Source: Clostridia bacterium (GTDB lineage: Bacteria > Bacillota > Clostridia > Saccharofermentanales > Saccharofermentanaceae). Taken from it: a DNA stretch of 64,000 nt. Shown one piece after another: positions 2,871-61,788 of this stretch. How positions within the stretch are numbered: the first letter of the stretch is position 1; each line of letters opens with the position of its first letter. Position numbers and translations under genes: made by a program. Location of the stretch: assembly GCA_016281535.1 (NCBI GenBank), contig JAEEIT010000131.1, positions 1-64,000 of the forward strand. The letters run 5' to 3'. Under the pieces are notes generated by a model. It saw nothing but the letters and a program-made list of their open reading frames with translations, was not told where the DNA came from and ran no database searches.

Positions 2871-2969
2871 GAGTATTTCTAGGATTAAACCAGAGGTATA
2901 TAATAGAAATATATCCCGTGACGGAGAGATCTTTCCCGTCTGCGGAGTAAGATGAGAAGGAGACTGCTT

Positions 2970-5417
2970 ATGGCATCCGATTTTGTTTCTTCCATGATGA
3001 AAAAGCTCTCTGTCAAGCAGAAAGCGACACTTTGTTCCGGATGGGATTTCTGGAGGACACAGAGATTCCCGATCAATAACATTCCGCCGATCATGATGAC
3101 CGATGGCCCGCACGGCCTTCGTAAACAGGAGAGCGAAGAGGGAAGACGTGGTGCCGGGGACAGCCGGGAAGCAACATGTTTCCCGCCGGCGGCGACGACG
3201 GCATGCTCCTTCGATGAGAAACTCATGGAGGCGCTGGGGAAGGCGATCGGAGAAGAAGCGATCGATCAGGATGTGTCGATCGTTCTGGGACCGGCGATCA
3301 ACATCAAGCGTTCGCCTCTTTGTGGCAGGAATTTCGAATATGTGTCGGAAGACCCGTATCTGGCCGGTAAGATGGGCGCGGCCTGGGTACGCGGTGTGCA
3401 GAGCCAGGGAATCGGAACATCGGTGAAGCATTTCGCGGCGAACAGCCAGGAGCGGTGCCGTCTTATCAATAATTCCATTGTCGATGAACGTGCGCTTCGC
3501 GAGATCTATCTGCGTGCGTTCGAGCTGGTCGTTAAGGAAAGCCGCCCCTGGACCGTGATGGCTTCTTACAACCGCGTCAATGGGACTTATGCCTGCGAGA
3601 GCAGGAAACTTCTCACGGATGTTCTTCGAGATGAGTGGGGATTCGATGGCGTGGTCATGAGTGACTGGGGAGCCGTGAATAACCGCCTTGATGCCCTGGC
3701 GGCCGGACTGGAACTCGAGATGCCGAGTTCTGTGGGTGAACGGGATCGGATGATCCGTGAAGCCGTGGATTCCGGGAAGCTTCCGATGGCGCTTCTGGAT
3801 CGGGCGGCGGAACGTCTTCTTACAATGATCGAGAAAGGAATGAACAAGCCGAAGCCGACTTCGTCTCCGTATCTGAATCATCAGCAGCTGGCGCGTCAGG
3901 CTTTCGAAGAGTCGGCGGTGCTTCTGAAGAACGATAAGCTCCTTCCTATCGATGCAGATAAGAGCGTGGCCGTGTTGGGCGCGATGGTCAAGCAGACCCG
4001 TTTCCAGGGTGGAGGAAGCTCGCATATTCATCCGACACATGTTTCGGATGCTTTCAGTGGTTTTTCTACCACGAGTGAGAATTTCATTTATGAACCCGGC
4101 TATTCTCTGGAGAATGACGAGGTCGATGAGAAGCTTCTGAATTCTGCTATTGAGGCGGCGAAAGATAAAGATGTAGTCATCATCTTCGCAGGGCTTCCGG
4201 ACAGTTTCGAATCAGAATCCTTCGACCGTGCCCATATGCATCTTCCGAAATCCCATGACAGATTGATTAACGAGGTCGTGAAGCGGAACAGTAATGTGTG
4301 TGTCGTCCTTTATTGCGGATCGCCAGTGGAAATGCCCTGGATCTCTCAGGTCAAGTCTGTGCTTCTTGCCTATCTGCCGGGTCAGGAAGGGGCCGGTGCG
4401 ATAGCGGACATTCTCTATGGTAAAGTCAATCCTTCCGGAAAACTGGCAGAGACATTCCCGCTTAAACTGTCCGACACACCGACATATCTGAACTTCGGCG
4501 AGAAGAGACAAACACTTTATGCCGAGAGTGTTTTCGTCGGATACAGATATTACGATAGCGCCAATATGCCAGTGCTTTTCCCGTTTGGGCACGGGCTTTC
4601 GTATTCTGCTTTCTCGTACGGAGAGCTCCAGCTGTCTTCTTCGGATATTCAGGAGAATGATAAGGTTACCGTTTCCGTAGATGTGACGAATATAAGCGAG
4701 ATGGACGGTAAGGAAGTCGTCCAGCTGTATGTTGCCCCTCCGAAATCGCGGATATTTAAGCCGGTACGCGAACTCCGCGGTTTTAAGAAGGTGTTCGTTC
4801 AGCGCGGCGGCACCAGGACTGTGGAGTTCGAACTGGATAAGCGTGCTTTCGCATATTATAATGCGCAGATCAAGGACTGGCATGTAGAGAGCGGAACCTA
4901 TAAGATCCAGATCGGTGCATCATCCCGGGATATCCGCTGCGAGCGTGAGATCCATGTCACATCGAAGATGCCCGAGGTCATAGCACCGGATTATTCAGAG
5001 AAAGCGCCACAGTACTATAACCTCGATTCCCAGACGAAGATATTCGACAGGAAACAGTTCGAAGTCGTCTATGACAGTAAGATACTTGAGGAGAATGACC
5101 CGAAGAAAGGCGAATTCAACCTGAATTCGAATGTAGAGGATGTCCGTCGGGGGAATCTCTTCGGTAAAGCTTTCTATCAGATCATGAAGCTTTCGATCAA
5201 GAAGAGGAATAAACTGGAGACTCAGGAAGAGATGAAGAAGATGAATGAGGTCATGATGATGGAGATGCCGCTCCGGACGGTGGCCACATTCAGCCTCGGG
5301 AGAATCACGATCGAACAGATGGAAGCACTCCTTTTGTTAATGAATGGTCACTTTTTCAAGGGGATCTGGCGTGCAATCAAGGCGAAAAAGAGAAAGAAAG
5401 ATCTTGCTTTCCTCTGA
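2970..5417 (+). CDS. Glycoside hydrolase family 3 (beta-glucosidase-like)
   Basis: GH3 motifs KHFAANSQE, GFDGVVMSDWGAV (nucleophile Asp), C-terminal Fn3-like domain (GKEVVQLYVAPP). ORF opens at 2952; ATG at 2970 has better RBS spacing (GAAGGAG). Confidence 0.9.
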   Translation: MASDFVSSMMKKLSVKQKATLCSGWDFWRTQRFPINNIPPIMMTDGPHGLRKQESEEGRRGAGDSREATCFPPAATTACSFDEKLMEALGKAIGEEAIDQDVSIVLGPAINIKRSPLCGRNFEYVSEDPYLAGKMGAAWVRGVQSQGIGTSVKHFAANSQERCRLINNSIVDERALREIYLRAFELVVKESRPWTVMASYNRVNGTYACESRKLLTDVLRDEWGFDGVVMSDWGAVNNRLDALAAGLELEMPSSVGERDRMIREAVDSGKLPMALLDRAAERLLTMIEKGMNKPKPTSSPYLNHQQLARQAFEESAVLLKNDKLLPIDADKSVAVLGAMVKQTRFQGGGSSHIHPTHVSDAFSGFSTTSENFIYEPGYSLENDEVDEKLLNSAIEAAKDKDVVIIFAGLPDSFESESFDRAHMHLPKSHDRLINEVVKRNSNVCVVLYCGSPVEMPWISQVKSVLLAYLPGQEGAGAIADILYGKVNPSGKLAETFPLKLSDTPTYLNFGEKRQTLYAESVFVGYRYYDSANMPVLFPFGHGLSYSAFSYGELQLSSSDIQENDKVTVSVDVTNISEMDGKEVVQLYVAPPKSRIFKPVRELRGFKKVFVQRGGTRTVEFELDKRAFAYYNAQIKDWHVESGTYKIQIGASSRDIRCEREIHVTSKMPEVIAPDYSEKAPQYYNLDSQTKIFDRKQFEVVYDSKILEENDPKKGEFNLNSNVEDVRRGNLFGKAFYQIMKLSIKKRNKLETQEEMKKMNEVMMMEMPLRTVATFSLGRITIEQMEALLLLMNGHFFKGIWRAIKAKKRKKDLAFL

Positions 5418-5547
5418 TATTACGGGCGTTACGCCTTTGTTGCTTCGGTTTCTTCAAAATGAAATATCTCTGATACATGACAGAGGGACTGCCGTGCTAC
5501 AATATCCTTAAGAAGTTATGTAATATAGCGGAAAATGGGAGAGAAGC

Positions 5548-8500
5548 ATGACGCAGTTACCTGCACAAGGTTATTTCTATCCATATGATTCGATGGACGA
5601 ACTCTACGCGGAGAAACAGCCGCCGGAGTTCGGACGGTTGCCGTCGCTCTGGAAGCTGGAGCTTCCGAAGTGGCGTTTCTTCCATGCGAAGTATAAGGAA
5701 GATGTGCCGGAGAACTGGACCTCTCCCGAATTTGATGACAGTAAGTGGGACCTGATCGATGTGCCAAGCGTATGGCAGATGCAGGGCTACGGATACCCGA
5801 GTGAACTCGTATACGAGAAGAATGCGCTTCTTTCGAAGAAGACCTCGCGTCTTCAGCAGAGACTGGCGGATGATGCCGGCATGGAGAATACGAATGATTA
5901 CGGCCTGTATCGTGTGTGGGTCAATCTCCCGTCGCAGTTTATCAACCGATTCGTCTATTTCTTCTCGGACGGAATCGTCGGTCATTACACGATCAGCGTG
6001 AATGGTCAGCATTTGTCCTCGTCGAGAAGTACTTTCTCCACGACGAAGTGCCTGCTGAATGAAGCGCTTCATGAAGGCGCGAATCTCATTACCGTTGCCG
6101 TGCGAAGGTTCGACGTGCGTATGGAGAGAGGGAAGATGAAGAAGAATGTCCGCGCACAGGGGGCATTCGGATTCTCGGGACTGTTCCGTCTTCCGTATCT
6201 CGTCGCCGAATCCAGCGTGGAGATCGCTTCTGTACGTTTGTTTACAAGCTGGCTTACCGATACTCTTGCCCGAGATGTAGTGCCGAAGACGGCGCTGGTA
6301 AACAGTCTGTACCGTTCGGATAATGACGACCAGCTCACAGATCGCGAGAAGGAGATCCTTCCGCAATCCGAGATCCGGCGAGATGCGGGAATGAATGTCG
6401 AGGTGGAACTTGTGAACCACCTTCCTTACGATATGCAGGTGACCGTGAACTGCAGGCTCATGGAGGCCAGAGACGAGTATGACCTTTATAACCTGCCTGA
6501 ACATCGTCTTTCCCAGCGTAAAGAACTGTCCGACACGATTCCGAAAGACGGTGTGAAGATCATCGGTACGGAATTCTATGCGAAACTGGTTCTTCCCTGG
6601 ACGGACCAGACGCCGAATCTCTACGATCTTCTGATCGAGGTGCGTGACAATAAGGACCAGGTGATCTGCGTGAAGAAGCAGCGTTTCGGGTTCCGTTCGA
6701 TCTCCTACTCGGAGAGTATCATCCACGTGAATGATCTGGCGGTTCCGATCCACGGCGTGAAATACTATGAATTCGATCCCGAGAACGGAATCTCCGTTCC
6801 GCTCGAGCGCTTCCGTCAGGATATCCTTCTGATGAAAGCCGGGAATATCAATACGATCTATGTCGTCCATCATCCGACCGATTCTCGTTTCTTCGATCTT
6901 TGTGACCGGTACGGCATGTATGTGATTCTTCAATCTGCCGCTGCGGTCCTTCCGCAGACGGTGTATTCCCTTATAAATCATCCGTGTATCATCATGTGGT
7001 CCATGACCGGACGGAAATTCGAAGAGGGGGCGTACCTCGATGTGAAAGAACGGATCAACGCCTTCGATGCGAAGCGTCCGCTTTATTGTGAGATCGATAA
7101 TACGGGAAGAGTCACGGATATGCCGCCGTTCCCGAATAAGGCAGGTATGCTGTTCGGACAGTGGTGTGATCTATGTGTGAACCGTCCGTATCTGAGGAGT
7201 CGTCTGAAAGAAGACAAGGTCCTTTTCGAGTCGATCATGGCGCGTCCGAGAAGAGAAGAAGATACGATGGATCTAAAGTATATCCATCAGGGAGACCTTG
7301 TCGAGTATTCGGAACAGATCGGTGTGTCTATCGCACAGGGAATCGTCGATGCGAACCGCAATCCGCACCCGATATTCTATGAGGTGAAGAAACAGTGCGA
7401 AGGAATCAAGATCTTCGCTTCAGCGGAGAATCCTTCGTTCCTTACCGTACATAATGTTTCGCCTTTCGGTTCCACACCGTCGATTGAACTGAAGTGGCAG
7501 CTGCTGCTCGGCGGGATACGTCTTCAGGGAGGATCCGGTATCCTTCCGCCTATTTCCGCTCTTGGTAACCGTGAGATGCAGTTCCCGATCGAGGTCGGAG
7601 ATTTCCTGACGCCTCTATGGGCACAGAAATATCCGAAGGCACAGGAAATTTATAATCAGGCAGTATGTGAAGAACTGATCCTCGATATCCGTCTGACTCT
7701 GGCCAAGGATGCCAGCTACGCGAAAGCCGGATATGAAGTGGCGTTCTATCAGCAGATCCTTGTGGATAAAGTCTGTGATCCTTCCTCAGAGGTGCCGGTT
7801 TGGGAGACGTCTTCGGATGGAGAAGAACCGGAGATCCAGATCATCGATGCATCGGAACTGAAAGACGGTCTGATCCTCGATGAAGAGAAAAAACGCGTGA
7901 AAGTCCTGACGGCGCCAGCTCTGCTCTATGCGCAGTGCAGTAATGTGCAGTATGGTTTCAGCCGACGGGAAGGAGGACTCTGTTCGATCCGCATCGATGG
8001 GAAAGAATACTTCGACGGACTTTTGGAGCCCAGTTTCTACCGTGCGGCCTCGAATATCGACCGTGCAGATAAGTCCTATGTGCTGTCGCAGACAGTGTTT
8101 TCTCATGAGACTGACTGGCGTACGATTCAGAGTGAGATGCGGTTCGTAGGAAGTTTCTATGAGATGGATGGAGATGACTTCCATCTGATTTGTAAATATA
8201 GTTCGACAGGTATGAAGGGCCCGATCCTTGTTCACTACAGAGTGAAGCCTGAAGGAAAGCTTCTTGCGACGCTGGAGTTCGTCCCGAAGTTCGATCTGGT
8301 GCGCTATGGATTCCGTGTTCCGATCGATCCGATGTCTCATCTGGGATGGTACGGAAGAGGATCCGGCGAATCCTACTCCGATAGAAAAGAATCGCAGCGG
8401 ATCGGATGGTTCACCACCTTGGAGAATTCTCTCTACCATGAGTATGCCAGACCTTCTGAGAACGGCGCGCATGCGGATACACGCTACCTGCTTCTGCAGC

Positions 8501-8751
8501 TGGATGACGTGAAGGGACTGTCGATTCACAAGAATAAGCTGGAACCGTTTTCTTTCTCGTGTATGCCATATATGCCGGAAGATCTGGATGACTTCGCACA
8601 TCAGGAACTGATGCCGAAAGACGGCCGTACGCATCTGTATCTGGACTTCTATATGAAAGGGGTCGAACGAGGCCCCGATGTGCTCGCCCGGCGCGGACTA
8701 CAGAAAAACGTCCGCTACGAGGAGACGATCGAATTTGCTCCAAAGTACTAA
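5548..8751 (+). CDS. Glycoside hydrolase family 2 LacZ-like protein, apparently lacking canonical catalytic motifs
   Basis: LacZ-like N-terminal jelly roll (FDDSKWDLIDVPSVWQMQGYG), HGVKYYEFDPENG, HHPTDSRFFDLCDRYGMYVI, NPHPIFYEVKK, and domain 5 WYGRGSGESYSDR / RPSENGAHADTRYL; WSxGNE and CEYxHxMGNS motifs not found. Confidence 0.8.
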   Translation: MTQLPAQGYFYPYDSMDELYAEKQPPEFGRLPSLWKLELPKWRFFHAKYKEDVPENWTSPEFDDSKWDLIDVPSVWQMQGYGYPSELVYEKNALLSKKTSRLQQRLADDAGMENTNDYGLYRVWVNLPSQFINRFVYFFSDGIVGHYTISVNGQHLSSSRSTFSTTKCLLNEALHEGANLITVAVRRFDVRMERGKMKKNVRAQGAFGFSGLFRLPYLVAESSVEIASVRLFTSWLTDTLARDVVPKTALVNSLYRSDNDDQLTDREKEILPQSEIRRDAGMNVEVELVNHLPYDMQVTVNCRLMEARDEYDLYNLPEHRLSQRKELSDTIPKDGVKIIGTEFYAKLVLPWTDQTPNLYDLLIEVRDNKDQVICVKKQRFGFRSISYSESIIHVNDLAVPIHGVKYYEFDPENGISVPLERFRQDILLMKAGNINTIYVVHHPTDSRFFDLCDRYGMYVILQSAAAVLPQTVYSLINHPCIIMWSMTGRKFEEGAYLDVKERINAFDAKRPLYCEIDNTGRVTDMPPFPNKAGMLFGQWCDLCVNRPYLRSRLKEDKVLFESIMARPRREEDTMDLKYIHQGDLVEYSEQIGVSIAQGIVDANRNPHPIFYEVKKQCEGIKIFASAENPSFLTVHNVSPFGSTPSIELKWQLLLGGIRLQGGSGILPPISALGNREMQFPIEVGDFLTPLWAQKYPKAQEIYNQAVCEELILDIRLTLAKDASYAKAGYEVAFYQQILVDKVCDPSSEVPVWETSSDGEEPEIQIIDASELKDGLILDEEKKRVKVLTAPALLYAQCSNVQYGFSRREGGLCSIRIDGKEYFDGLLEPSFYRAASNIDRADKSYVLSQTVFSHETDWRTIQSEMRFVGSFYEMDGDDFHLICKYSSTGMKGPILVHYRVKPEGKLLATLEFVPKFDLVRYGFRVPIDPMSHLGWYGRGSGESYSDRKESQRIGWFTTLENSLYHEYARPSENGAHADTRYLLLQLDDVKGLSIHKNKLEPFSFSCMPYMPEDLDDFAHQELMPKDGRTHLYLDFYMKGVERGPDVLARRGLQKNVRYEETIEFAPKY

Positions 8752-8765
8752 TTTCACTATATGAT

Positions 8766-8796
8766 GGGGGCTTCCGGTGACGACCGGGGGCTCTTT
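8766..8796. terminator. Hairpin/terminator between convergent genes
   Basis: GGGGGCTTCCGGTgacgACCGGGGGCTCTTTT between the GH2 stop and the convergent pseudouridine synthase. Confidence 0.55.
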
Positions 8797-13958: not shown

Positions 13959-14582
13959 ATGGCAGGAGATTTTTCCATTTCTGCCGAACAGCGTGAAGCG
14001 AATAAGAAGAAGATCACGGAACTTCTTCTGTCGACCAAGCGTCCCGGTATGGAGCGTCTGGTCGAGTGGATCTGCAACAAGACGGACTTCTTCACGGCGC
14101 CGGCCTCGACGAAGTACCATCTGTGTTGTGACGGCGGACTGGCACAGCACAGCCTTCATGTGTATCAGCGGCTGTCTGAGAAGGTTGCCCAGGGTTTGAT
14201 CTCGATCGAGCCGGATACGGTGATTATCACATCGCTCCTTCATGACCTTTGTAAGGTCAACTTCTACGTGAAAGAGACGAAGAACGTGAAAGAAGGAACG
14301 AAGATCAACCAGTATGGTAAGGAGGTGGCCAACTGGGTCGAGAAAGAGGTGTGGGGGATCAAGGACAGCTTCCCTGTGGGACACGGGGAGAAGTCGTGCT
14401 GGTATGTCCAGAACTTCATTCGCCTCAAGCCGGAGGAATATGCCATGATCCGGCTTCATATGGGACCGGATAAGAATACCTATCCGGATCCGTTTTCTGA
14501 AACTGCGAAGATCTATCCTTCTGTGGTAGCGATCTTCACATCCGACATCGAATCAGCTTACATTTTGGAGGAAAGACAATGA
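13959..14582 (+). CDS. HD-domain phosphohydrolase-like protein
   Basis: GGLAQHSLHVYQRL...TVIITSLLHDLCKVNFYV (H...HD), HGEKSCW...RLHMG. Confidence 0.7.
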   Translation: MAGDFSISAEQREANKKKITELLLSTKRPGMERLVEWICNKTDFFTAPASTKYHLCCDGGLAQHSLHVYQRLSEKVAQGLISIEPDTVIITSLLHDLCKVNFYVKETKNVKEGTKINQYGKEVANWVEKEVWGIKDSFPVGHGEKSCWYVQNFIRLKPEEYAMIRLHMGPDKNTYPDPFSETAKIYPSVVAIFTSDIESAYILEERQ

Positions 14583-16573
14583 TCTACTATGTTGACCAGA
14601 ACACGAAATCCCAAGGATGCGGAACGAAGGAACATCCTTTTCTGACGATCAGTGCCGCGGCGAAGGTGGCCAGGCCGGGCGACGAAGTCCTGGTTATGCC
14701 GGGTGTGTACCGCGAGTATGTCGACCCGATGAACGCCGGTACGGAAGATGCCCGTATCACCTACCGCTCTGTGGAACCGCTGAAGGCCGTAATTACCGGC
14801 GCCGAGATCGTGAAGGGCTGGGAAAAATATAAAGGAAAGACCTGGAAGGTTACGATCGATAACGGAATCTTCGGAGCCTATAACCCATACGACACCAGAA
14901 TCGGCGGAGACTGGTACTTCTGGCATCGTCATCCGCATACCGGATGCGTGTACCTGAATGATGTCGCGCTCTATGAGACGGATGATCTGGATGCCTGCCT
15001 CAAGGGAGAGAAGGACGACGCTTCGTGGGAGCCGGAGAATTCCATCTATAAGTGGTATTGCGAACAGAAGGACGGGAAGACGGTGATCTATGCCAATTTC
15101 CAGGGAAAGGACCCGAATAAGGAAAAGGTCGAGATCAATGTCAGAAGAAACTGTTTCTTCCCGAGCAGGACCGGTGTCGGATACATTACTCTTTCCGGAT
15201 TTACGGTCAATAAAGCGGCCACGACCTGGGCACCGCCGGCGGCATTCCAGGATGGTATGATCGGACCGCACTGGAGCCGTGGCTGGATCATCGAGGACTG
15301 CGAAGTCAGCCATAGCCGCTGCTGCGGTATTTCTCTGGGTAAATACCTCGATCCTGAGAATGATCACTACTTCACGAAATACCGGGTGAAGAGCCCGACA
15401 CAGATGGAACGTGATGCCGTATGCCGTGGCCAGTATCACGGATGGCTCAAGGAGAATATCGGTGCGCATATCGTGCGCCGCTGCCATATCCATCACTGTG
15501 AACAGACAGGTATCGTGGGCCGTATGGGGTGTGTCTTCTCGATTATCGAGGACAACCATATCCACAATATCAACAATATGATGGAGGTCGGTGGTGCCGA
15601 GATCGCGGGCATCAAGCTACATGCGGCGATCGACGTCATCATGAGAAGAAACCATGTGCACCACTGTACGATGGGTATCTGGTGTGACTGGCAGGCACAG
15701 GGTACGATCCTGTCGCAGAATCTCCTTCATGACAATCACACGCCGGAGTTTGCCAAGCGTATCCCGGGCACGATCATGAGCCAGGATATCTTCATCGAAG
15801 TCGGTCACGGTCCGACGCTTGTGGATAACAATGTCATGCTGAGTAAGGCGTCGCTCCGTCTGGCGACCGAGGGCGTCGCGGTGGTGAATAACCTGATCTG
15901 TGGTACTTTCCAGGCGATCGGTGAAGGTACGGACGAGATGGTCGCCGGAAAGAATCAGCCGAGATATACGCCTTATCACTTCCATCACCGGACCGAAGTG
16001 ATGGGATTCATGAGCATCCTTCATGGTGACGACAGGATCTACAACAATATCTTCATCCAGAAGTGGCCGATCGAGACACGTCCGGAAGACATTCCGGAGC
16101 AGTTCTTCGATAAGCAGGAGGTCGGAACATTCCTCTTCGATGAATACCCGACTTATCAGGAATGGATCGATTCCTTCCATCTGAATGAGCCGATGGCCTA
16201 TGAACACAAGATCATGGAGAAGCATTTCCAGCATCTGCCTGTATGGATCGACCATAATGTCTACTTTAATGGTGCCAAGCCGTGGGCGAAGGAAGAGACG
16301 AATCTGGTCGTGAAGCGGTTCAAGGCGACGGCGGATGTGATCGAGAAGGATGGAGAATACGTACTGGTGACGAATGTGATGAAGAAAGTGAAGGAGCTTT
16401 CTTGCGGCATTATCAATACGGATATTCTGGGTAAAGCCTTCCAGCCGGATCAGCGCTTCGAGAATACGGACGGTTCGGACATCGTCTTCAATTACGACTA
16501 TTTCGGTGCCGACAGAGGCGTCATGACGATTGCCGGTCCTTTCGCTGAGGCGAAGGAAGAGTATATCCTGTAA
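14579..16573 (+). CDS. Right-handed parallel beta-helix protein (DUF1565/pectate-lyase-like, possible glycosidase)
   Basis: YYVDQNTKSQGCGTKEHPFLTISAAAKVARPGDEVLVMPGVYREYVDP; successive coils IIEDCEVSHSRCCGISL, HIVRRCHIHHCEQTGIV, SIIEDNHIHNIN, VIMRRNHVHHCTMGIW; no obvious signal peptide. Confidence 0.7.
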   Translation: MIYYVDQNTKSQGCGTKEHPFLTISAAAKVARPGDEVLVMPGVYREYVDPMNAGTEDARITYRSVEPLKAVITGAEIVKGWEKYKGKTWKVTIDNGIFGAYNPYDTRIGGDWYFWHRHPHTGCVYLNDVALYETDDLDACLKGEKDDASWEPENSIYKWYCEQKDGKTVIYANFQGKDPNKEKVEINVRRNCFFPSRTGVGYITLSGFTVNKAATTWAPPAAFQDGMIGPHWSRGWIIEDCEVSHSRCCGISLGKYLDPENDHYFTKYRVKSPTQMERDAVCRGQYHGWLKENIGAHIVRRCHIHHCEQTGIVGRMGCVFSIIEDNHIHNINNMMEVGGAEIAGIKLHAAIDVIMRRNHVHHCTMGIWCDWQAQGTILSQNLLHDNHTPEFAKRIPGTIMSQDIFIEVGHGPTLVDNNVMLSKASLRLATEGVAVVNNLICGTFQAIGEGTDEMVAGKNQPRYTPYHFHHRTEVMGFMSILHGDDRIYNNIFIQKWPIETRPEDIPEQFFDKQEVGTFLFDEYPTYQEWIDSFHLNEPMAYEHKIMEKHFQHLPVWIDHNVYFNGAKPWAKEETNLVVKRFKATADVIEKDGEYVLVTNVMKKVKELSCGIINTDILGKAFQPDQRFENTDGSDIVFNYDYFGADRGVMTIAGPFAEAKEEYIL

Positions 16574-24569: not shown

Positions 24570-25232
24570 ATGGAATACTATCAGATTGCTATCGACGGAC
24601 CTTCGGGTTCGGGGAAGTCTACACTGGCGAAAGGAGTCGCGAAGAAGCTCTCCATCTTATATCTTGATACAGGTGCGATGTACCGTGCGTGCGGCCTGAA
24701 GGCGATCAAATCCGGTATCGATACGAAGGATAAGGACGCTGTGGAGAAGATGATGAAGGATATCAAGATCGATATCACGCATGAAGACGGCGAACAGCAT
24801 GTGTGGCTCGATGGTGAGGATGTGTCTTCTGAGATACGTATGCCGGGTGTTTCCGTGGCCGCATCGGATGTTTCGGCGATTCTCTGCGTGAGAGAAGCCA
24901 TGGTCGATCTTCAGAGGAAAATCTCTGAAGGGAAGAACGTCGTGCTGGATGGCAGAGATATCGGATCGAAAGTTTTCCCGGGTGCGAAGTATAAGTTCTT
25001 CCTGGTGGCGGCGGCAGAGGAGCGTGCCAGAAGAAGACTTCTTGAGCTTCAGCAGAAGGGCGTGACCGATACGACATACGAAGATGTACTTCGGGATATC
25101 CAGTACAGAGATCAGCAGGACACGACCCGCGCGGCCTCTCCACTGGTCAAAGTGGAAGATGCGATCGAGATCGATACGACCAAGATCAATATCGAAGAAA
25201 CACTCGACCTGCTTCTTTCCTATATTAAGTGA
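24570..25232 (+). CDS. cmk: Cytidylate kinase
   Basis: YYQIAIDGPSGSGKSTLAKGVAKKLSILYLDTGAMYRA, VLDGRDIGSKVFPGAKYKFFLVA. Confidence 0.95.
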   Translation: MEYYQIAIDGPSGSGKSTLAKGVAKKLSILYLDTGAMYRACGLKAIKSGIDTKDKDAVEKMMKDIKIDITHEDGEQHVWLDGEDVSSEIRMPGVSVAASDVSAILCVREAMVDLQRKISEGKNVVLDGRDIGSKVFPGAKYKFFLVAAAEERARRRLLELQQKGVTDTTYEDVLRDIQYRDQQDTTRAASPLVKVEDAIEIDTTKINIEETLDLLLSYIK

Positions 25233-25254
25233 TAAAGATAGGCGGAAGACGGAT

Positions 25255-27372
25255 TTGAGCGGCTGGAAGATCGAACTTGCGAAATCTTCAGGATTCTGTT
25301 TCGGAGTGGAGAATGCAGTGAAGACGGCATACTCTGTTATAAAAGAGAATCCGGACCGAAAGATATATATGCTGGGAGAGATCACCCATAACGAGAACGT
25401 CGTGGGCGATCTTCTTGCGTCCGGGATGCTTCTTGTACATGATCCGAAGGAAGCGGAAGAAGGAAGTCTGGTCCTGATCCGCGCCCATGGTGTGACCCCG
25501 GCCGTGATGGAAGAGCTGAAATCCAGAAATTGTGAGATCATTGACTGTACATGTCCATTCGTGAAGAAGATCCACGATATCGTAAAAGCTGCGGACGAGG
25601 AGGGACATCCTGTTTACATTACGGGTACGAAAGGACATCCGGAAGTGGTGGGGATCTGTGGAGAATGCAGACGTGATGTGACCGTAATCTCCTCGTATGA
25701 CGAGGTCCTGGCGATTCCGCAGATCGAAAAAGATGCTGTTTTCGTCTCGCAAACGACGTTCTCCAGCAAAGAATTCCAAAAAATATGTGAATTTGTGAAG
25801 AAAAAAATTGCAAAAAATCAAATATTTGGTACAATATGTTATACGACTGAAAATAGGCAGAGAGAAACTGCGGATCTGGCAGGCCTTTCCGATGTTATGG
25901 TAGTCATAGGATCGAAGACCAGCTCAAATACAAAGAAACTCTATGACATATGTTCAGATCGTTGTGCGCTGACTTATCTTGTCGGTGGCGCCGAAGATGT
26001 GGAACCATTGCTTCCGGTGTGGAGGGAACGCGAGGTGAAACGGATCGGAGTTACGGCAGGAGCTTCAACGCCGGTGAGTATTATCAGGGAGGTTATCCAA
26101 ACCATGAGTGAAGAGAACGGGGTAAACAACAATCCAGAGTCTAACGACATCAATTTCGGCGATTACGTAGAGAGCATTCCACAGCTCCGAAAGAACGCTA
26201 CAGTGAAGGGAGCTATTACGTCCTATGATGGCGATTTCGTATACGTAGATGTCCATGATAAGTCGGAAGGCCGGATCCCTAAGAGCGAGTTCGAACCTGA
26301 TTTTGACTTCGAGGCGGCAGCAAGCGAGAAGCGTGAGATTGAAGTATACGTAAAGAGCATCCGTAACACGGATATGGGTAAAGAGATCATTCTCAGTAAG
26401 TCCCATGTTGATTTCTCCAAGAACAAGGCAGAGATCGAGGCGGCGTATGAGAACAAGACACCGGTAACGGTAAAGATCACAAGCGTAGTGAAGGATGGCG
26501 TGATTGCGAATTACGGCGGTGTAGATATCTACATCCACAGAACACAGCTTGAGCTCGGTGTCGTAAATGATCTGGAGAGCTATAAGGGCAAGACACTTGA
26601 GATCCTGATCACACAGTTTGATCCGGATAAGAGAAGACTGAGAGTTTCCGGTTCGAGAAGAACACTTCTGAATCAGGAGCGCAAGGCAAAGGCAGAGGAA
26701 GTCTGGAGCACGATCGAGAAGGATAAGGAATACGACGGTGTCGTCAGAAGCCTTACTGACTTCGGTGCTTTCGTAGATATTGGCGGCGTGGATGGTCTGA
26801 TCCATGTTTCCGAGCTTTCCTGGAACCGCATCAAGCATCCGTCCGAGGTCCTGTCTGTCGGTGACGAAGTACACGTATACGTGAAGGATTTCGATCCGGA
26901 GAAGAAGAGGATCTCTCTTGGTTACAAGAAGGCGGAAGACGATCCGTTCTACAACATCGAAGAGCGTATCCCGACAGGTTCTATCGTACGCGGTAAGGTC
27001 GTTCGCATGTTCCAGTTCGGTGCTTTCGTAGAGCTCGAGCCGAATCTTGACGCTCTGTGCCATATCTCCGAGATCTCCAATGTTCGTCTTACTAAGCCGC
27101 AGGAAGTGCTGAAGGAAGGTATGGAAGTCGAGGCTCGTGTTCTCGAAGTAAATGCTGCTTCCAGAAGAATCAGCATCTCTATCAAGCAGGTTAACCCGAT
27201 CGATCCGCAGCCGCAGGATGAAGAACCGGCCGCTGAGGAAGTGAAGGCAGAAGAGCCGGCAGTAGAAGCTCCGGTTGAAGAAGCACCTGTAGAAGCAGTT
27301 GAGGCACCGGTTGAGGAAGCTACTCCGGTAGAAGAGGCTCCTGCTGCTGAGGAGAAGCCGGCGGAAGAGTAA
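25255..27372 (+). CDS. ispH-rpsA: Bifunctional 4-hydroxy-3-methylbut-2-enyl diphosphate reductase / ribosomal protein S1 fusion
   Basis: TTG start (AGGCGG RBS). Isp[80 protein letters not shown]; then four S1 repeats ([27 protein letters not shown] etc.) and an acidic tail. Confidence 0.93.
25808..25835 (+). promoter_or_regulatory. Candidate internal promoter within the ispH part
   Basis: TTGCAA-16 bp-TACAAT preceded by TGG, inside an unusually A/T-rich patch of the coding sequence. Confidence 0.4.
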
Positions 27373-27508: not shown

Positions 27509-27597
27509 TTTAGACGTATCGTTGCACATTTCTGATGTGACAGGGTTGTAGAGGTAATTCTATTCAGTTTTTCTGAAAAGAAGAAAGGATGTGTTTT

Positions 27598-30312
27598 ATG
27601 GGAAAGAAACATGACAAACGAAAAGTTGTGTCGCTTGCGATTGCACTCGCGCTTGTATGTGGCACGTGGATGCCGGTACTTGCCGGTGAAGGAGATGAGC
27701 AGTCGACAGTCGGACCGCAGGTTGTCAGTGGCGATAACGCGGGGACAGCTGTTGTTATCGGTAACATCGATGCAGTAGGAGCAGGAAAGGACGGTCTTAA
27801 TATCGACGCAACAGAGGGGAAGATCGCCAATGTTACTGTTGGAAGTGTCGTAGCAGATTATGATGATGGCATTTCGATCAGTGCTGATGACGGAACGGTG
27901 GGTCTTACTGTTAATGGTGATATTGATTCAAAGTATGGTATTTACTATCAGACTGCAGAGGATTCAACGATCAAAGTCGATGTTAATGGAAGCATCACAG
28001 CAAAAGAAGACTCGCTGCTTATGTCGACTAGTGGAAAGACAAAATCTAATGTAACAGTGAACGGTGATCTTACAGCAGGAGGTAATGCGCTTGATTTAGA
28101 GTCTAGTGGTACAAGTGTTCATAATGTCACGGTAACAGGTGATGTCACTTCTGAAGGTAACGATAACGATGCAATTGGTTTAGACGCGAATGATGAAAGT
28201 GCGATGTCTGTTGATGTGACCGGAAATGTGAGCGGCGTAGGCGGTGGAATTGATGCCAGCTCATATGGTGATAGTAAGATAGATGTTGATGTAACCGGCG
28301 GTGTGAGCGGCGGAGAGTATGGAATTGATGCCGACGCATATGGTGATAGTAAGATAGATGTTGATGTAACCGGCGAGAATGCTAATGTTATTGGTGGAGA
28401 TGCTATCTCGGCTAGTGCCTACGGTAATGCTGAGGTCAACATTACTGTAGAAGGCGATGTGGAAGGAACAGGACGCCGTGTGGCTGAGAAAGAAGACGAA
28501 ATGCCTGAGGATGAAATGCCTGAGGATGAAATGCCTGAGGATGAAGAGGGTACAGGTTTCGATGATGGTATCGGAATAGATGCAGAGGCATATGGTGAAG
28601 GTACTGTGAATGTCACGGTAAGTGGCGATGTTACAGGCAACTTTACCGGTATTCGGGCTGAAGCACGTAGCGTTGAAGACGGTTTTGTTGAACGTCGTGA
28701 CGATGAACCCTTAAGGCTCTTGGCGCGTGCTGTCCCCGATGCTGATGCTCCGGCTGATGACGATGAAGTGGAAGAGGATGAATCGGAAAAGAGTCCTGCC
28801 AGTGTCAATGTGGATGTGTCCGGTGATGTGACCGCAGGTGAACTGGGCGTGAATACCTCTGCAGCCGGTGGTGCTACGATCGATATCCATATCGGAGGCA
28901 ATCTGACAAGTTCTGGTAACGGTATTCAGCTTTATTCTGGTGGAGAAGATGGAGAAGCTTTGAAACCTGCTGAAGAAAGACCGGTGCTTCGTGCGGCTGC
29001 GATTCCGGATGGAGTTCCTGAAGAAGAAGGCGAGCCGGCGAGTGAAGAGGACGAGGATATCTCGGAAGAGGCAGAAGTGCCTTCGTCGATCAATGTCACA
29101 ATCGATGGTGATGTTACGGCAGAGAATTACGGCGTTATTGCAGATCTCGAGGAAGAGGGTTCTACGGCCGATATTCTGATCAATGGTACTCTTTCGGCAG
29201 GTGCTTGCCCGGTTCTGATCGCGAAGGAAGAAGTGGATGCAGAGAGTGGTGTGACTCTGACCGTGTGGAAAATCGTTCCTGGTGAAGATGGAGTTATAGC
29301 AAAGGACTCTTTGCCGGACACAGAGGATGAAGAGGATCTGGTGGAGGATGAGAATTTTGAGAAGTCCATCCAGTACATCATTAAGATGGAACAGCCCGAA
29401 AAGGGTGGTACCCTCTCCATTGATGGTGTGACGACCAGCCACGATCTGGATGTCGCCCATGAGGGAGAAAAAGTTCTTCTGAAAGTTGATCTTGAAGAAG
29501 GGTTCAAAATTACCGGCGCGTTTAACGGCTTGGGTGAGAAAGTTGCCCTGGTTCTTGACGATGATGGAAACTACTATGTGATCGTTCCGAGAGGCGGCGG
29601 AGTGTATCTGTCTGTCACACTTGATCTTGAGTCTTATAAAGTCGTTTTCGAGGATGAAGACGGAAATCCTCTTGAGGAAAAGGAAGTTCCTTATGGTGAA
29701 ACTCCGACATACACCGGACCGAAGCCGACCAAGGAAGAGACAGAAGGATATACCTACGAGTTTGAAGGCTGGAATATCGAACCGAGTCCGGTAACCGGGG
29801 ATATCACGTATAAAGCAGTATTTAATGCAAAAGCAAAGGTTTTCGACCTGACGTTTGATCTGGGTGGCGGCACACTTGATGGAAAGACGGGTACTGTCAC
29901 CATTCAAGCGGAGTATGGTTCCACGATTAAACTCCCCGCACCAACTAAGGATGGTTCAGTATTCGGATATTGGAAGGGTTCTCAGTATGAAGCAGGAGCA
30001 GAATATCTCGTAACCGGTCCACATGCCTTTACCGCCGTATGGGAAAAGGTGAAAGGTGAAGAAGAGAAGGCTCCTGTGGTAGAGCCGGTTCCGGCACCTG
30101 CACCTGCAAAGGAAGAAGCTCCGCAAGCCGAGCCGACGGATACTCCGACGTCAACTCCGACGGCCGCACCTGCATCAACCAATGGCACACCCAAGACCGG
30201 TGATGTCGGACGTGGATATGATATGCTTGGCATGACGCTTATGATCGCTGGTCTGGCAGTTCTTGCTTTCGCGGGCGTAAAGGCACTTCGCCGCAGAGAA
30301 GAAGAGTGCTGA
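27598..30312 (+). CDS. Large cell-surface protein: beta-solenoid repeats, InlB-like repeats and sortase-type C-terminus
   Basis: Signal peptide MGKKHDKRKVVSLAIALALVCGTWMPVLAG; recurrent V(D/N)V(T/D)V(T/S)GDVT coils; InlB-like YKVVFEDEDGNPLEEKEVPYGE...YTYEFEGWNIEPSPVTGDITYKAVF; C-terminus TPKTGD + hydrophobic + RRREEE. Confidence 0.8.
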   Translation: MGKKHDKRKVVSLAIALALVCGTWMPVLAGEGDEQSTVGPQVVSGDNAGTAVVIGNIDAVGAGKDGLNIDATEGKIANVTVGSVVADYDDGISISADDGTVGLTVNGDIDSKYGIYYQTAEDSTIKVDVNGSITAKEDSLLMSTSGKTKSNVTVNGDLTAGGNALDLESSGTSVHNVTVTGDVTSEGNDNDAIGLDANDESAMSVDVTGNVSGVGGGIDASSYGDSKIDVDVTGGVSGGEYGIDADAYGDSKIDVDVTGENANVIGGDAISASAYGNAEVNITVEGDVEGTGRRVAEKEDEMPEDEMPEDEMPEDEEGTGFDDGIGIDAEAYGEGTVNVTVSGDVTGNFTGIRAEARSVEDGFVERRDDEPLRLLARAVPDADAPADDDEVEEDESEKSPASVNVDVSGDVTAGELGVNTSAAGGATIDIHIGGNLTSSGNGIQLYSGGEDGEALKPAEERPVLRAAAIPDGVPEEEGEPASEEDEDISEEAEVPSSINVTIDGDVTAENYGVIADLEEEGSTADILINGTLSAGACPVLIAKEEVDAESGVTLTVWKIVPGEDGVIAKDSLPDTEDEEDLVEDENFEKSIQYIIKMEQPEKGGTLSIDGVTTSHDLDVAHEGEKVLLKVDLEEGFKITGAFNGLGEKVALVLDDDGNYYVIVPRGGGVYLSVTLDLESYKVVFEDEDGNPLEEKEVPYGETPTYTGPKPTKEETEGYTYEFEGWNIEPSPVTGDITYKAVFNAKAKVFDLTFDLGGGTLDGKTGTVTIQAEYGSTIKLPAPTKDGSVFGYWKGSQYEAGAEYLVTGPHAFTAVWEKVKGEEEKAPVVEPVPAPAPAKEEAPQAEPTDTPTSTPTAAPASTNGTPKTGDVGRGYDMLGMTLMIAGLAVLAFAGVKALRRREEEC
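28262..28376 (+). repeat. 75-nt (25 aa) in-frame tandem repeat inside the surface protein gene
   Basis: CATATGGTGATAGTAAGATAGATGTTGATGTAACCGGCG occurs at 28262 and 28337, 75 nt apart (SYGDSKIDVDVTGGVSGGEYGIDAD / AYGDSKIDVDVTG). Confidence 0.9.
28495..28548 (+). repeat. 15-nt in-frame minisatellite (GATGAAATGCCTGAG; DEMPE)
   Basis: GACGAAATGCCTGAG GATGAAATGCCTGAG GATGAAATGCCTGAG GATGAA: three copies plus partial. Confidence 0.95.
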
Positions 30313-58832: not shown

Positions 58833-59584
58833 AAGTAGTGAGTGTATCCGACACGGGTCTGGTGCGCGCGAACAATGAGGATTGTCTTGCAGTCTTTTCC
58901 GTCGGTAAGGACGAGTGTTTCGTCATCGCGGACGGGATGGGCGGTCATGCAGCCGGGGAACTGGCCAGTAAGACCGCTGTCGAGTATGTCCGGCAGTCCC
59001 TGAATGAATATCTTTATGAAGCAGATGATCCCGATAAACTTGAGAAACTTCTTTCTTTCACGCTGGAGAAGGCGAATGTGAAGGTGTATCTTGCCTCTCT
59101 CTCCGGGTTCCGTTTCCGCGGTATGGGTACGACGCTGACAGTGGCGGTTCTACGTGAGAACAAACTATATGTTTCCCATATCGGTGACTGCAGGCTCTAT
59201 CATCTTCATGGACAGAGAATGAAGCAGCTGACGACGGATCACACGCTGGTCCAGCGGATGATCGAGAAGGGTGCGATCACGAAAGAAGAGGCCAGAACGC
59301 ATCCGAAACGTCATGTGCTTCTGCGTTCTCTCGGTGTCAATGAATATGTGATGCCGGATACATTCTCGGTTGCAATTAGCAATGGAGATGTTATACTTTT
59401 GTGTTCGGACGGTCTTTATGGCTGTGTAGAGGAGAAAACGATCCGGGCAGTCCTGAGGAAGCACAAGGACCTGCATTATTGTATCCAGCTCCTGATGGAT
59501 CTGACAGAGGCGGCCGGTGCACCCGATAATATATCTATGATCCTGGCAGAGTGTGAGGTCAGGAAAAACAAGGAGAAGACATGA
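58829..59584 (+). CDS. prpC: PP2C-family Ser/Thr phosphatase
   Basis: SDTGLVRANNEDCLAV, FVIADGMGGHAAGELAS, VSHIGDCRLYHLHG, LLCSDGLYGCV; ATGA overlaps on both sides. Confidence 0.95.
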   Translation: MKVVSVSDTGLVRANNEDCLAVFSVGKDECFVIADGMGGHAAGELASKTAVEYVRQSLNEYLYEADDPDKLEKLLSFTLEKANVKVYLASLSGFRFRGMGTTLTVAVLRENKLYVSHIGDCRLYHLHGQRMKQLTTDHTLVQRMIEKGAITKEEARTHPKRHVLLRSLGVNEYVMPDTFSVAISNGDVILLCSDGLYGCVEEKTIRAVLRKHKDLHYCIQLLMDLTEAAGAPDNISMILAECEVRKNKEKT

Positions 59585-61788
59585 GTACGAATTTGAACCC
59601 TGAGGGGATGATACTGGGCGGGAGATACCGCATCGTGAAGCTGATCGGAAGCGGAGGTATGGCCGATGTGTATCTGGCAACCGACCTCGATTCCGGCATG
59701 AATGTCGCGATCAAGATCCTGAAGCAGGAGTTTGCTACGAATGTGGAATTCATCAAGCGGTTCGATACCGAGGCGAAAGCCGCGTCATCGCTGTCTCACG
59801 CCAATATTGTTCATGTGTTCGGTGTCGGGACGGAGGGTAATATCCGCTACATGGTCCAGGAATATGTCGAGGGTATTACGGTTAAGGATATGATCCTTCA
59901 GAACGGGCATCTGGACTGGAAAGTCGCGGTGCCGATCGTGATCCAGGTGGGTATGGCGCTCGATACGGCGCACCAGAACGGAATCGTGCATCGTGATATC
60001 AAGCCCCACAATATCCTGATCACGCGTGACCGTGTGGCGAAGGTGACGGACTTCGGTATCGCTCATGCTTCGACCAATCATACGATCACGCTTACATCCG
60101 GTGGTGCACTTGGTTCTGTCCACTATTTCTCACCGGAGCAGGCCAGAGGCGGTATTGTCAGCCCGAGTTCGGACATTTATTCCCTGGGCGTCACTCTTTT
60201 CGAGATGCTGACAGGCCGTGTTCCTTTCGATGGAGAGAATTCTGTGGCGATTGCCGTCAAACATCTCCAGGAGCCGGTGCCTTATGCTTCTTCGTTCGTA
60301 CCCGGTATTCCGCAGGGCCTTGATGCCATTATCCAGAAGGCCATGCAGAAGGACCCGAAGATGCGCTACAAGTCGATCCGTGAGATGGTCACGGAACTGG
60401 ATGCATTGATGGTCGATCCGAATGGTTCCTATGGTATCGTGGATGCCAATGCCGAGACACCGAATGAGGTAACGGATATGCCCGGAGTGGCTCCTGTCAT
60501 CCGTCAGGAACCGAATTACGGCAAATTGAAAGATATTGAAAGATCCATTAAAGTCAGAAGACGTTCGAGATGGAAAGATAACCTCATCGTGATTGTAGTC
60601 GTGATCGTGATCATCGGTCTTCTGATCGGTCTTACTTATCTGGTGACAGACACGCTGAAGAAGTCTGTCCGTCAGGAGACGCAGAGCGTATTTGTTGTAC
60701 AGAACTATGTCGGCAAACGTATCGTCGAGGTGCAGCAGATCTTCGAGGAACATGAGTTCACTACGTATAAAGTCGAGTATGAGATAAGGACAGACTATGC
60801 ACCGGGTGTCGTCGTCAAGCAGAATATCCAGGAAGGCATGGAGATGAAGAATAACAGCTCCGTGAATGTTCTGGTGCTTACGGTGAGTAAGGCTCCGGAT
60901 GCGGTGGAACTTCCTGATTATGCAGGAATGGACTATAAAGAAGTCTACGAGACATTGAAGAAGGAAGGCTACGAGGTATCGATGCGTCCTGAGATCAACG
61001 ATGATAATAAGGTCGGTGTGATCCTGCGTACGGAACCGCCGGCCGGAACGCCGGTCAAGCCGAACGCCTCGATTACGATCGTATTCAGCCAGCAGTCATC
61101 TGAGGTCGAAGTTCCGTACATGTATAAGAGTGATCTGAAGACGGCGAAGGAAATGATCGATGCGGCTGATCTGGTACTTGGTGGGATCGAGATCAGTCCG
61201 GAACTGCAGGAACAGAATCTCCCGGAGACAGAACTCTTCGTGCTACTGACAGATCCGACGCCCGGAACCAAGGTGCAGAGAAAGTCGGCGATCCGTCTGT
61301 ATGTCGGTAATGCAGAAGATGTTGCCCGTGGAGGAACACCGACTCCGACGCCGGAGATCATTGGCTATACACTTACCGTTGAGTATACTGGGGAAGGTTC
61401 CGTATCCGGTGAAGGTGTGTATCCGGTAAATGATCCGGTCACGATCACGGCGGTACCGAATATCGGGTATCAGTTCGTATCCTGGGTGGATGAAGCGGGT
61501 CAGGTGATCAGCTATTCTGCTTCATATACGTTTGTCATGCCGGAAGGTGATTTCAAGGTAAAGGCGATATTTGAACCTGTTCCGACTCCGTCGCCGATTC
61601 CGACGGCAACACCTACACCGACACCGACTCCGACTCCGACTCCGACACCAACACCTACGCCGACACCGACGCCCACGCCGACACCCACACCGACGCCAAC
61701 GCCGGTTCCGCCGCCGTCTCAGAATTCGGATCCGACGCCGCCTACCGGTCAGGATGAACCGCAGGATGGAGAGCTTCCGATTGCCTGA
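59581..61788 (+). CDS. prkC: PASTA-domain Ser/Thr protein kinase with C-terminal InlB-like repeat and Thr-Pro tail
   Basis: GSGGMADVYLATD, HRDIKPHNILI, DFGIAHAS; TM; three PASTA units; then YTLTVEYTGEGSVSGEGVYPVNDPVTITAVPNIGYQFVSWVDEAG...FVMPEGDFKVKAIFEP and a (TP)n tail. Confidence 0.94.
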   Translation: MSTNLNPEGMILGGRYRIVKLIGSGGMADVYLATDLDSGMNVAIKILKQEFATNVEFIKRFDTEAKAASSLSHANIVHVFGVGTEGNIRYMVQEYVEGITVKDMILQNGHLDWKVAVPIVIQVGMALDTAHQNGIVHRDIKPHNILITRDRVAKVTDFGIAHASTNHTITLTSGGALGSVHYFSPEQARGGIVSPSSDIYSLGVTLFEMLTGRVPFDGENSVAIAVKHLQEPVPYASSFVPGIPQGLDAIIQKAMQKDPKMRYKSIREMVTELDALMVDPNGSYGIVDANAETPNEVTDMPGVAPVIRQEPNYGKLKDIERSIKVRRRSRWKDNLIVIVVVIVIIGLLIGLTYLVTDTLKKSVRQETQSVFVVQNYVGKRIVEVQQIFEEHEFTTYKVEYEIRTDYAPGVVVKQNIQEGMEMKNNSSVNVLVLTVSKAPDAVELPDYAGMDYKEVYETLKKEGYEVSMRPEINDDNKVGVILRTEPPAGTPVKPNASITIVFSQQSSEVEVPYMYKSDLKTAKEMIDAADLVLGGIEISPELQEQNLPETELFVLLTDPTPGTKVQRKSAIRLYVGNAEDVARGGTPTPTPEIIGYTLTVEYTGEGSVSGEGVYPVNDPVTITAVPNIGYQFVSWVDEAGQVISYSASYTFVMPEGDFKVKAIFEPVPTPSPIPTATPTPTPTPTPTPTPTPTPTPTPTPTPTPTPTPVPPPSQNSDPTPPTGQDEPQDGELPIA
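61600..61710 (+). repeat. Hexanucleotide-like repeat encoding (Thr-Pro)n
   Basis: Repeated ACNCCN units (acaccgacaccgactccgactccg...) in the prkC 3' end. Confidence 0.95.

Follow-up and report, generated by a model that had tools for sequence, protein, structure and literature searches.

Gene locus and surroundings

The window, as the whole stretch of 64,000 nucleotides analyzed here is called (contig JAEEIT010000131.1, from a Clostridia bacterium of the family Saccharofermentanaceae), harbors on its forward strand a gene for a pseudo-β-galactosidase (5548–8751), referred to below as pseudo-GH2. The open reading frame starts with ATG and encodes 1067 residues without an internal stop, and every motif quoted in the first-pass annotation of this DNA is found in the protein. 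Neither a signal peptide nor a membrane helix is seen, and the protein is probably cytosolic. A strong intrinsic terminator (8766–8795, forward strand; −24.8 kcal/mol, z −6.0) lies directly 3' of the gene. The leader (5460–5560, forward strand) folds better than shuffled sequences (−27 kcal/mol, z −3.4) with the start codon inside a predicted stem, and is possibly a regulated leader. The base composition of the gene is that of the adjoining genes in the window, an agreement on which horizontal acquisition was rejected.

The upstream neighbor (2952–5417, forward strand) encodes a BglB-like GH3 β-glucosidase, whose best solved relative is the 'thermostable β-glucosidase B' (7MS2). As described earlier, it is apparently intact; the SDW nucleophile motif is present. 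The other neighbors of pseudo-GH2, named by eye, depend on the subclade and include a membrane pyrophosphatase, RluB, a two-component system, a NAGPA-like protein, a HAD phosphatase and YchF; the neighborhood comparison found no gene neighbor conserved in all genera that would hint at a partner. Elsewhere on the forward strand of the window, inspection by eye brought out a 664-residue protein resembling a right-handed β-helix (14579–16573), a 762-residue open reading frame that apparently joins IspH (LytB) to repeats of the ribosomal protein S1 type (25084–27372), a repetitive protein of 907 residues and surface type, which has a C-terminal hydrophobic tail and a PKTGD sorting-like motif (27589–30312), and a PASTA-type Ser/Thr kinase whose C-terminal part holds a long (TP)n tract, adjoining a PP2C phosphatase (59581–61788).

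Domain architecture and predicted structure

Pseudo-GH2 shows the five-domain order of LacZ-type proteins (PF02837, PF00703, PF02836, PF16353 and PF02929), each match lying above the Pfam cut-off, although the TIM-barrel profile PF02836 is matched, in its best stretch, only at positions 5–77 of 302. All features that follow are on the forward strand. The N-terminal jelly roll (5635–6231; residues about 30–228, with the PF02837 match at 41–218) is followed by an Ig-like domain 2 (6376–6699; residues about 277–384, PF00703), which contains the family motif EYDxYxLPE (6475–6501; residues 310–318, aligned to LacZ 266–274), with Y311, D312, Y314 and P317 invariant in the family. The degenerate TIM barrel (6700–7398) was delimited from AlphaFold2 models and alignments. 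Newly invariant residues, Y406 and F409-D410, stand at the end of its first strand (6763–6777) in place of LacZ R356 and H359-H360, and the strand-4 motif NHPCIIMWSMTGR (6976–7014) marks the former acid/base site. A family-specific block, GxxFGxWxDLC ... IHxxDL ... IAQGIV (7108–7347; residues 521–600), takes the place of the nucleophile segment. The Ig-like domain 4 (7441–7758; residues about 641–745, Pfam match 632–737, PF16353) precedes domain 5, Bgal_small_N (7939–8664; residues 798–1039, PF02929, E 1.1e-39), within which lies the conserved loop PSFYRxxxNIDRxD...FSxExDxxxIQ (8023–8130; residues 826–861), aligned to LacZ about 780–814, a segment that includes the LacZ mobile loop.

Structures were predicted with AlphaFold2 from family alignments for two members, the window protein (pLDDT 74, pTM 0.64) and its YRB3002 ortholog (pLDDT 79, pTM 0.78), which are about 37% identical. 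The best Foldseek matches of both models are LacZ structures, with TM 0.6–0.7, and the best solved relatives are LacZ-type β-galactosidases that match in separate blocks on either side of the active site. The fold and domain order are those of E. coli LacZ and of the enzymes from Thermotoga maritima (6SD0) and Paenibacillus barengoltzii (9M0E), with about 15–21% identity in structural alignment and 92 conserved positions in common. The claim that the protein is built on a LacZ scaffold is thus upheld by Pfam, Foldseek and the tree described below. The predicted barrel, however, is not a complete (β/α)8 barrel: in both models it consists only of strands 1–5 and a strand-8 equivalent (GMLFGQW). 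Strand 7, which bears the nucleophile, is missing, strand 6 is missing as a strand, and neither model has a strand for LacZ 498–559. Two segments, residues about 556–597 and about 834–855, have low confidence in both models and yet are among the most conserved of the protein; the second corresponds to LacZ about 790–808, the mobile loop included. In LacZ, this mobile loop is located near the active site. Such conserved segments of low model confidence would fit ordering induced by a partner or a ligand.

Loss of the catalytic site

The catalytic site was compared in an alignment of the window protein and about 40 of its orthologs with E. coli LacZ and with canonical GH2 proteins from the same order and class. 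The canonical proteins keep R388, H391, N460, E461, Y503 and E537 without exception (25 of 25, E. coli LacZ included), and 24 of the 25 also keep E416, H418 and H540. The exception, L179 (G432:C1:2622400-2626900), is a GH2 homolog on a very long branch in which E416 is replaced by W, H418 by T and H540 by S, while both catalytic glutamates are kept. Unlike these enzymes, pseudo-GH2 lacks both catalytic glutamates, E461 and E537, together with R388, E416, H418, N460, Y503 and H540, and the losses are common to the family orthologs down to about 30% identity; what had been noticed in a single sequence is therefore a property of the family.

Two deletions account for most of these losses. Between D524 (D497 in LacZ) and P529 (P560) there are 4 residues instead of 62, a 58-residue deletion that takes out LacZ 498–559, with Y503, E537, H540 and the strand that carries the nucleophile. 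The second deletion, of 22 residues between Y458 (Y408) and H478 (H450), removes E416 and H418, so that these five residues are gap positions in the family alignment, and the loop-7 nucleophile falls inside the 58-residue deletion in every family member aligned. The first-pass annotation had found this region shortened and with no recognisable counterpart, which holds for LacZ 498–559 but not for strand 8: LacZ GGFVWDW is aligned to AGMLFGQW, with W568 changed to G537 and W570 retained as W539, and strand 8 is followed by about 23 inserted residues.

At the acid/base site in loop 4, the Asn-Glu pair is replaced by GR in the window protein and by GR, GK, DY and other pairs across 62 family sequences. 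The replacement had been correctly noticed, but the coordinates assigned to it, 6997–7017, cover only WSMTGRK of the motif. E492 and E493 (TGRKFEEG) were considered as substitute acids near this site and rejected, as neither is conserved; the family alignment holds no conserved Asp or Glu at residues 485–499, and no substitute carboxylates were found. The strand-2 arginine R388 has become I, Y, F or M, and H391 is kept only in some members, the window's genus among them. Since the sites of N102, D201, R388, H391, N460, E461 and F601, that is, the positions of the sugar pocket, are not constant within the family (residues at D201 and at N460-E461 differ among its members), it is unlikely that galactose binding is retained at the old LacZ site.

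Distribution, selection and origin

A profile built on the family-specific region (A3, residues 470–600) found one gene per genome in 113 of 115 species genomes of the host bacterial family, with a few matches split over contig ends, and in 61 of 62 high-quality genomes. The family block was found in none of 73 genomes from other families of the same order, and had no match in 391 genomes of the class or 399 of the phylum, all from outside the family; the weaker matches there are ordinary GH2 proteins that owe their score chiefly to the strand-4 part. When 84,980 species genomes were scanned with a pattern, 112 relatives were confirmed; the best 80 of them, which gave the 79 loci listed, all belong to records that are Saccharofermentans-like or similar, with rumen and gut as the main sources. 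Records resembling isolates also carry the gene (strains YAD3003, YRB3002, AB4001 and KHP2). Pseudo-GH2 is a single-copy, near-universal core gene of one bacterial family.

The gene is intact in all same-genus genomes searched, and comparisons of pairs from the genus give a dN/dS of about 0.05 for the gene as a whole. The lowest values, 0–0.05 in nearly all comparisons, are those of barrel residues 385–600; all these values come from a simple counting method that saturates for some pairs, with the direction clear. There are 129 family-specific conserved positions (at least 93% in 62 orthologs and not typical of LacZ) versus 92 shared with LacZ. Pseudo-GH2 is under strong purifying selection and is maintained family-wide. 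A quick tree gathers the family into a single clade with support 100. Its stem is long (1.9 changes per site), and among the canonical LacZ proteins next to it are one of the same family and another of the same order. Decay of the gene or an assembly artefact, which only the motif losses themselves would suggest, is refuted by its intactness across nearly the whole family in many independent assemblies and isolates, by the dN/dS value and by its own terminator, and can be set aside with practical certainty.

Proposed function and alternative explanations

By homology and fold only, the five-domain architecture and the predicted structure place pseudo-GH2 in the LacZ-type superfamily. Four features expected of a GH2 (CAZy) glycosidase are lacking: the loop-7 nucleophile Glu, the loop-4 Asn-Glu, the strand-2 Arg and, in the models, a complete barrel. 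The window protein is almost certainly dead as a GH2 catalyst, to judge from these residues, and the loss of catalytic residues in all orthologs aligned, together with purifying selection, marks it as a probable pseudoenzyme. The best overall reading, held with moderate confidence, is a vertically inherited, LacZ-derived pseudoenzyme that most likely serves as a binding or assembly scaffold. A LacZ-type GH2 present in the ancestor of the host bacterial family would have given rise to these proteins once, with vertical inheritance thereafter; GH2 catalysis would have been lost, and the LacZ fold with its five domains kept under selection. A role in binding or as a scaffold is itself fairly probable. 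The protein would work by binding in the cytosol, as an oligomeric scaffold or a sensor, and would expose a rebuilt surface on which a conserved partner, either a protein or a small molecule, could bind. This surface may comprise the 521–600 block, the 826–861 loop, the EYDxYxLPE motif of domain 2 and the N-terminal segment. The N-terminal and domain-2 elements of LacZ sit at its subunit interface. Placed by their LacZ positions, the elements of the proposed surface would be located at, or close to, the entrance of the former active site and the subunit interface; the low pLDDT of both conserved loops is the reason for using LacZ positions and not model coordinates. The pseudoenzyme part of the earlier proposal of a non-catalytic sugar-binding or sensing protein is retained, and its sugar pocket, the sites of which vary in the family, is not.

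It could be argued that the scaffold has acquired a different chemistry, with a new active site formed by the newly invariant residues at the rebuilt barrel mouth. D410, C543, H580, D583 and C617 are invariant, new invariant residues, Cys and His among them, are found at the strand ends and in the strand 8–helix 8 block, and the region that contains them is under very strong purifying selection. Most first-shell pocket positions are nevertheless variable, the block has in part low model confidence, and no known catalytic motif is recognised in the protein, so that a new enzyme appears unlikely. Somewhat broader is the tentative idea that the LacZ scaffold, minus two barrel strands, may have been rebuilt into a different functional site, either that of a new enzyme or an essential signaling or assembly hub. 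Pseudo-GH2 would then represent a new core protein family of a single bacterial lineage, and no account of such a family was found for GH2.

A partnership with another glycosidase has also been considered. Pseudo-GH2 could be an accessory or regulatory partner of the neighboring GH3 β-glucosidase, modulating it or sensing its substrate: in the window's genus the GH3 gene directly precedes it on the same strand, and in genera g1, g3, g4 and g5 the two share a strand and are no more than about 5 kb apart. However, other genes separate them in g4, g5 and one g3 genome, and the GH3 ortholog is absent from most genomes of g2, the largest genus, which keep pseudo-GH2 all the same. The GH3 link is therefore not essential for pseudo-GH2, the idea of an obligate partner is weakened, and a GH3-directed role is rather improbable. 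Of 13 near-complete genomes from the window's genus, 12 have no GH2-barrel gene other than pseudo-GH2, which therefore cannot be regarded there as a subunit of an active LacZ.

A divergent GH2 glycosidase that remains active through unconventional residues is very improbable. The LacZ fold is kept, and a 2025 survey of GH2 (PMC12243196) reported substitutions of the acid/base and of the His, Tyr and Trp of the pocket, and for a single subfamily also of the strand-2 Arg; the acid/base motif is altered in GH2_21 and in some GH2_19 (TV, NA or NQ), as it is in pseudo-GH2. These two subfamilies are nevertheless reported to retain the loop-7 nucleophile Glu, which is reported as invariant in all 23 CAZy GH2 subfamilies (PMC12243196), whereas pseudo-GH2 has lost this residue along with its strand, as well as the strand-2 Arg, and has no conserved acid at the acid/base site. 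The suggestion of a divergent GH2 subfamily thus fails on the single feature that is said to be common to all of them. As the survey took in only proteins covering more than 50% of the GH2 profile, those like pseudo-GH2 may have been filtered out of it.

Significance

Klotho, heparanase-2 and the chitinase-like lectins are mostly animal proteins in which the barrel is whole. They belong to other families (GH1, GH79 and GH18, respectively; for heparanase-2 see PMC12406646) and are likewise glycosidase folds kept by selection as non-catalytic binding proteins, from which pseudo-GH2 differs in being bacterial, probably cytosolic and incomplete in its barrel. No description of GH2 pseudoenzymes was found in the open-access papers searched. 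The nucleophile of GH2, a textbook enzyme family, is reported to be invariant. Here a single-copy homolog that lacks it, along with the acid/base and a complete barrel, is kept by strong selection throughout a lineage, which makes it a clear natural example of an enzyme scaffold put to a different use. Because pseudo-GH2 exceeds the Pfam cut-offs, automatic annotation is likely to label it as a GH2 glycosidase, and the GH2 counts of these common rumen bacteria are likely inflated by about one per genome. The existence of isolate-like records that carry the gene makes the question of its function directly testable.
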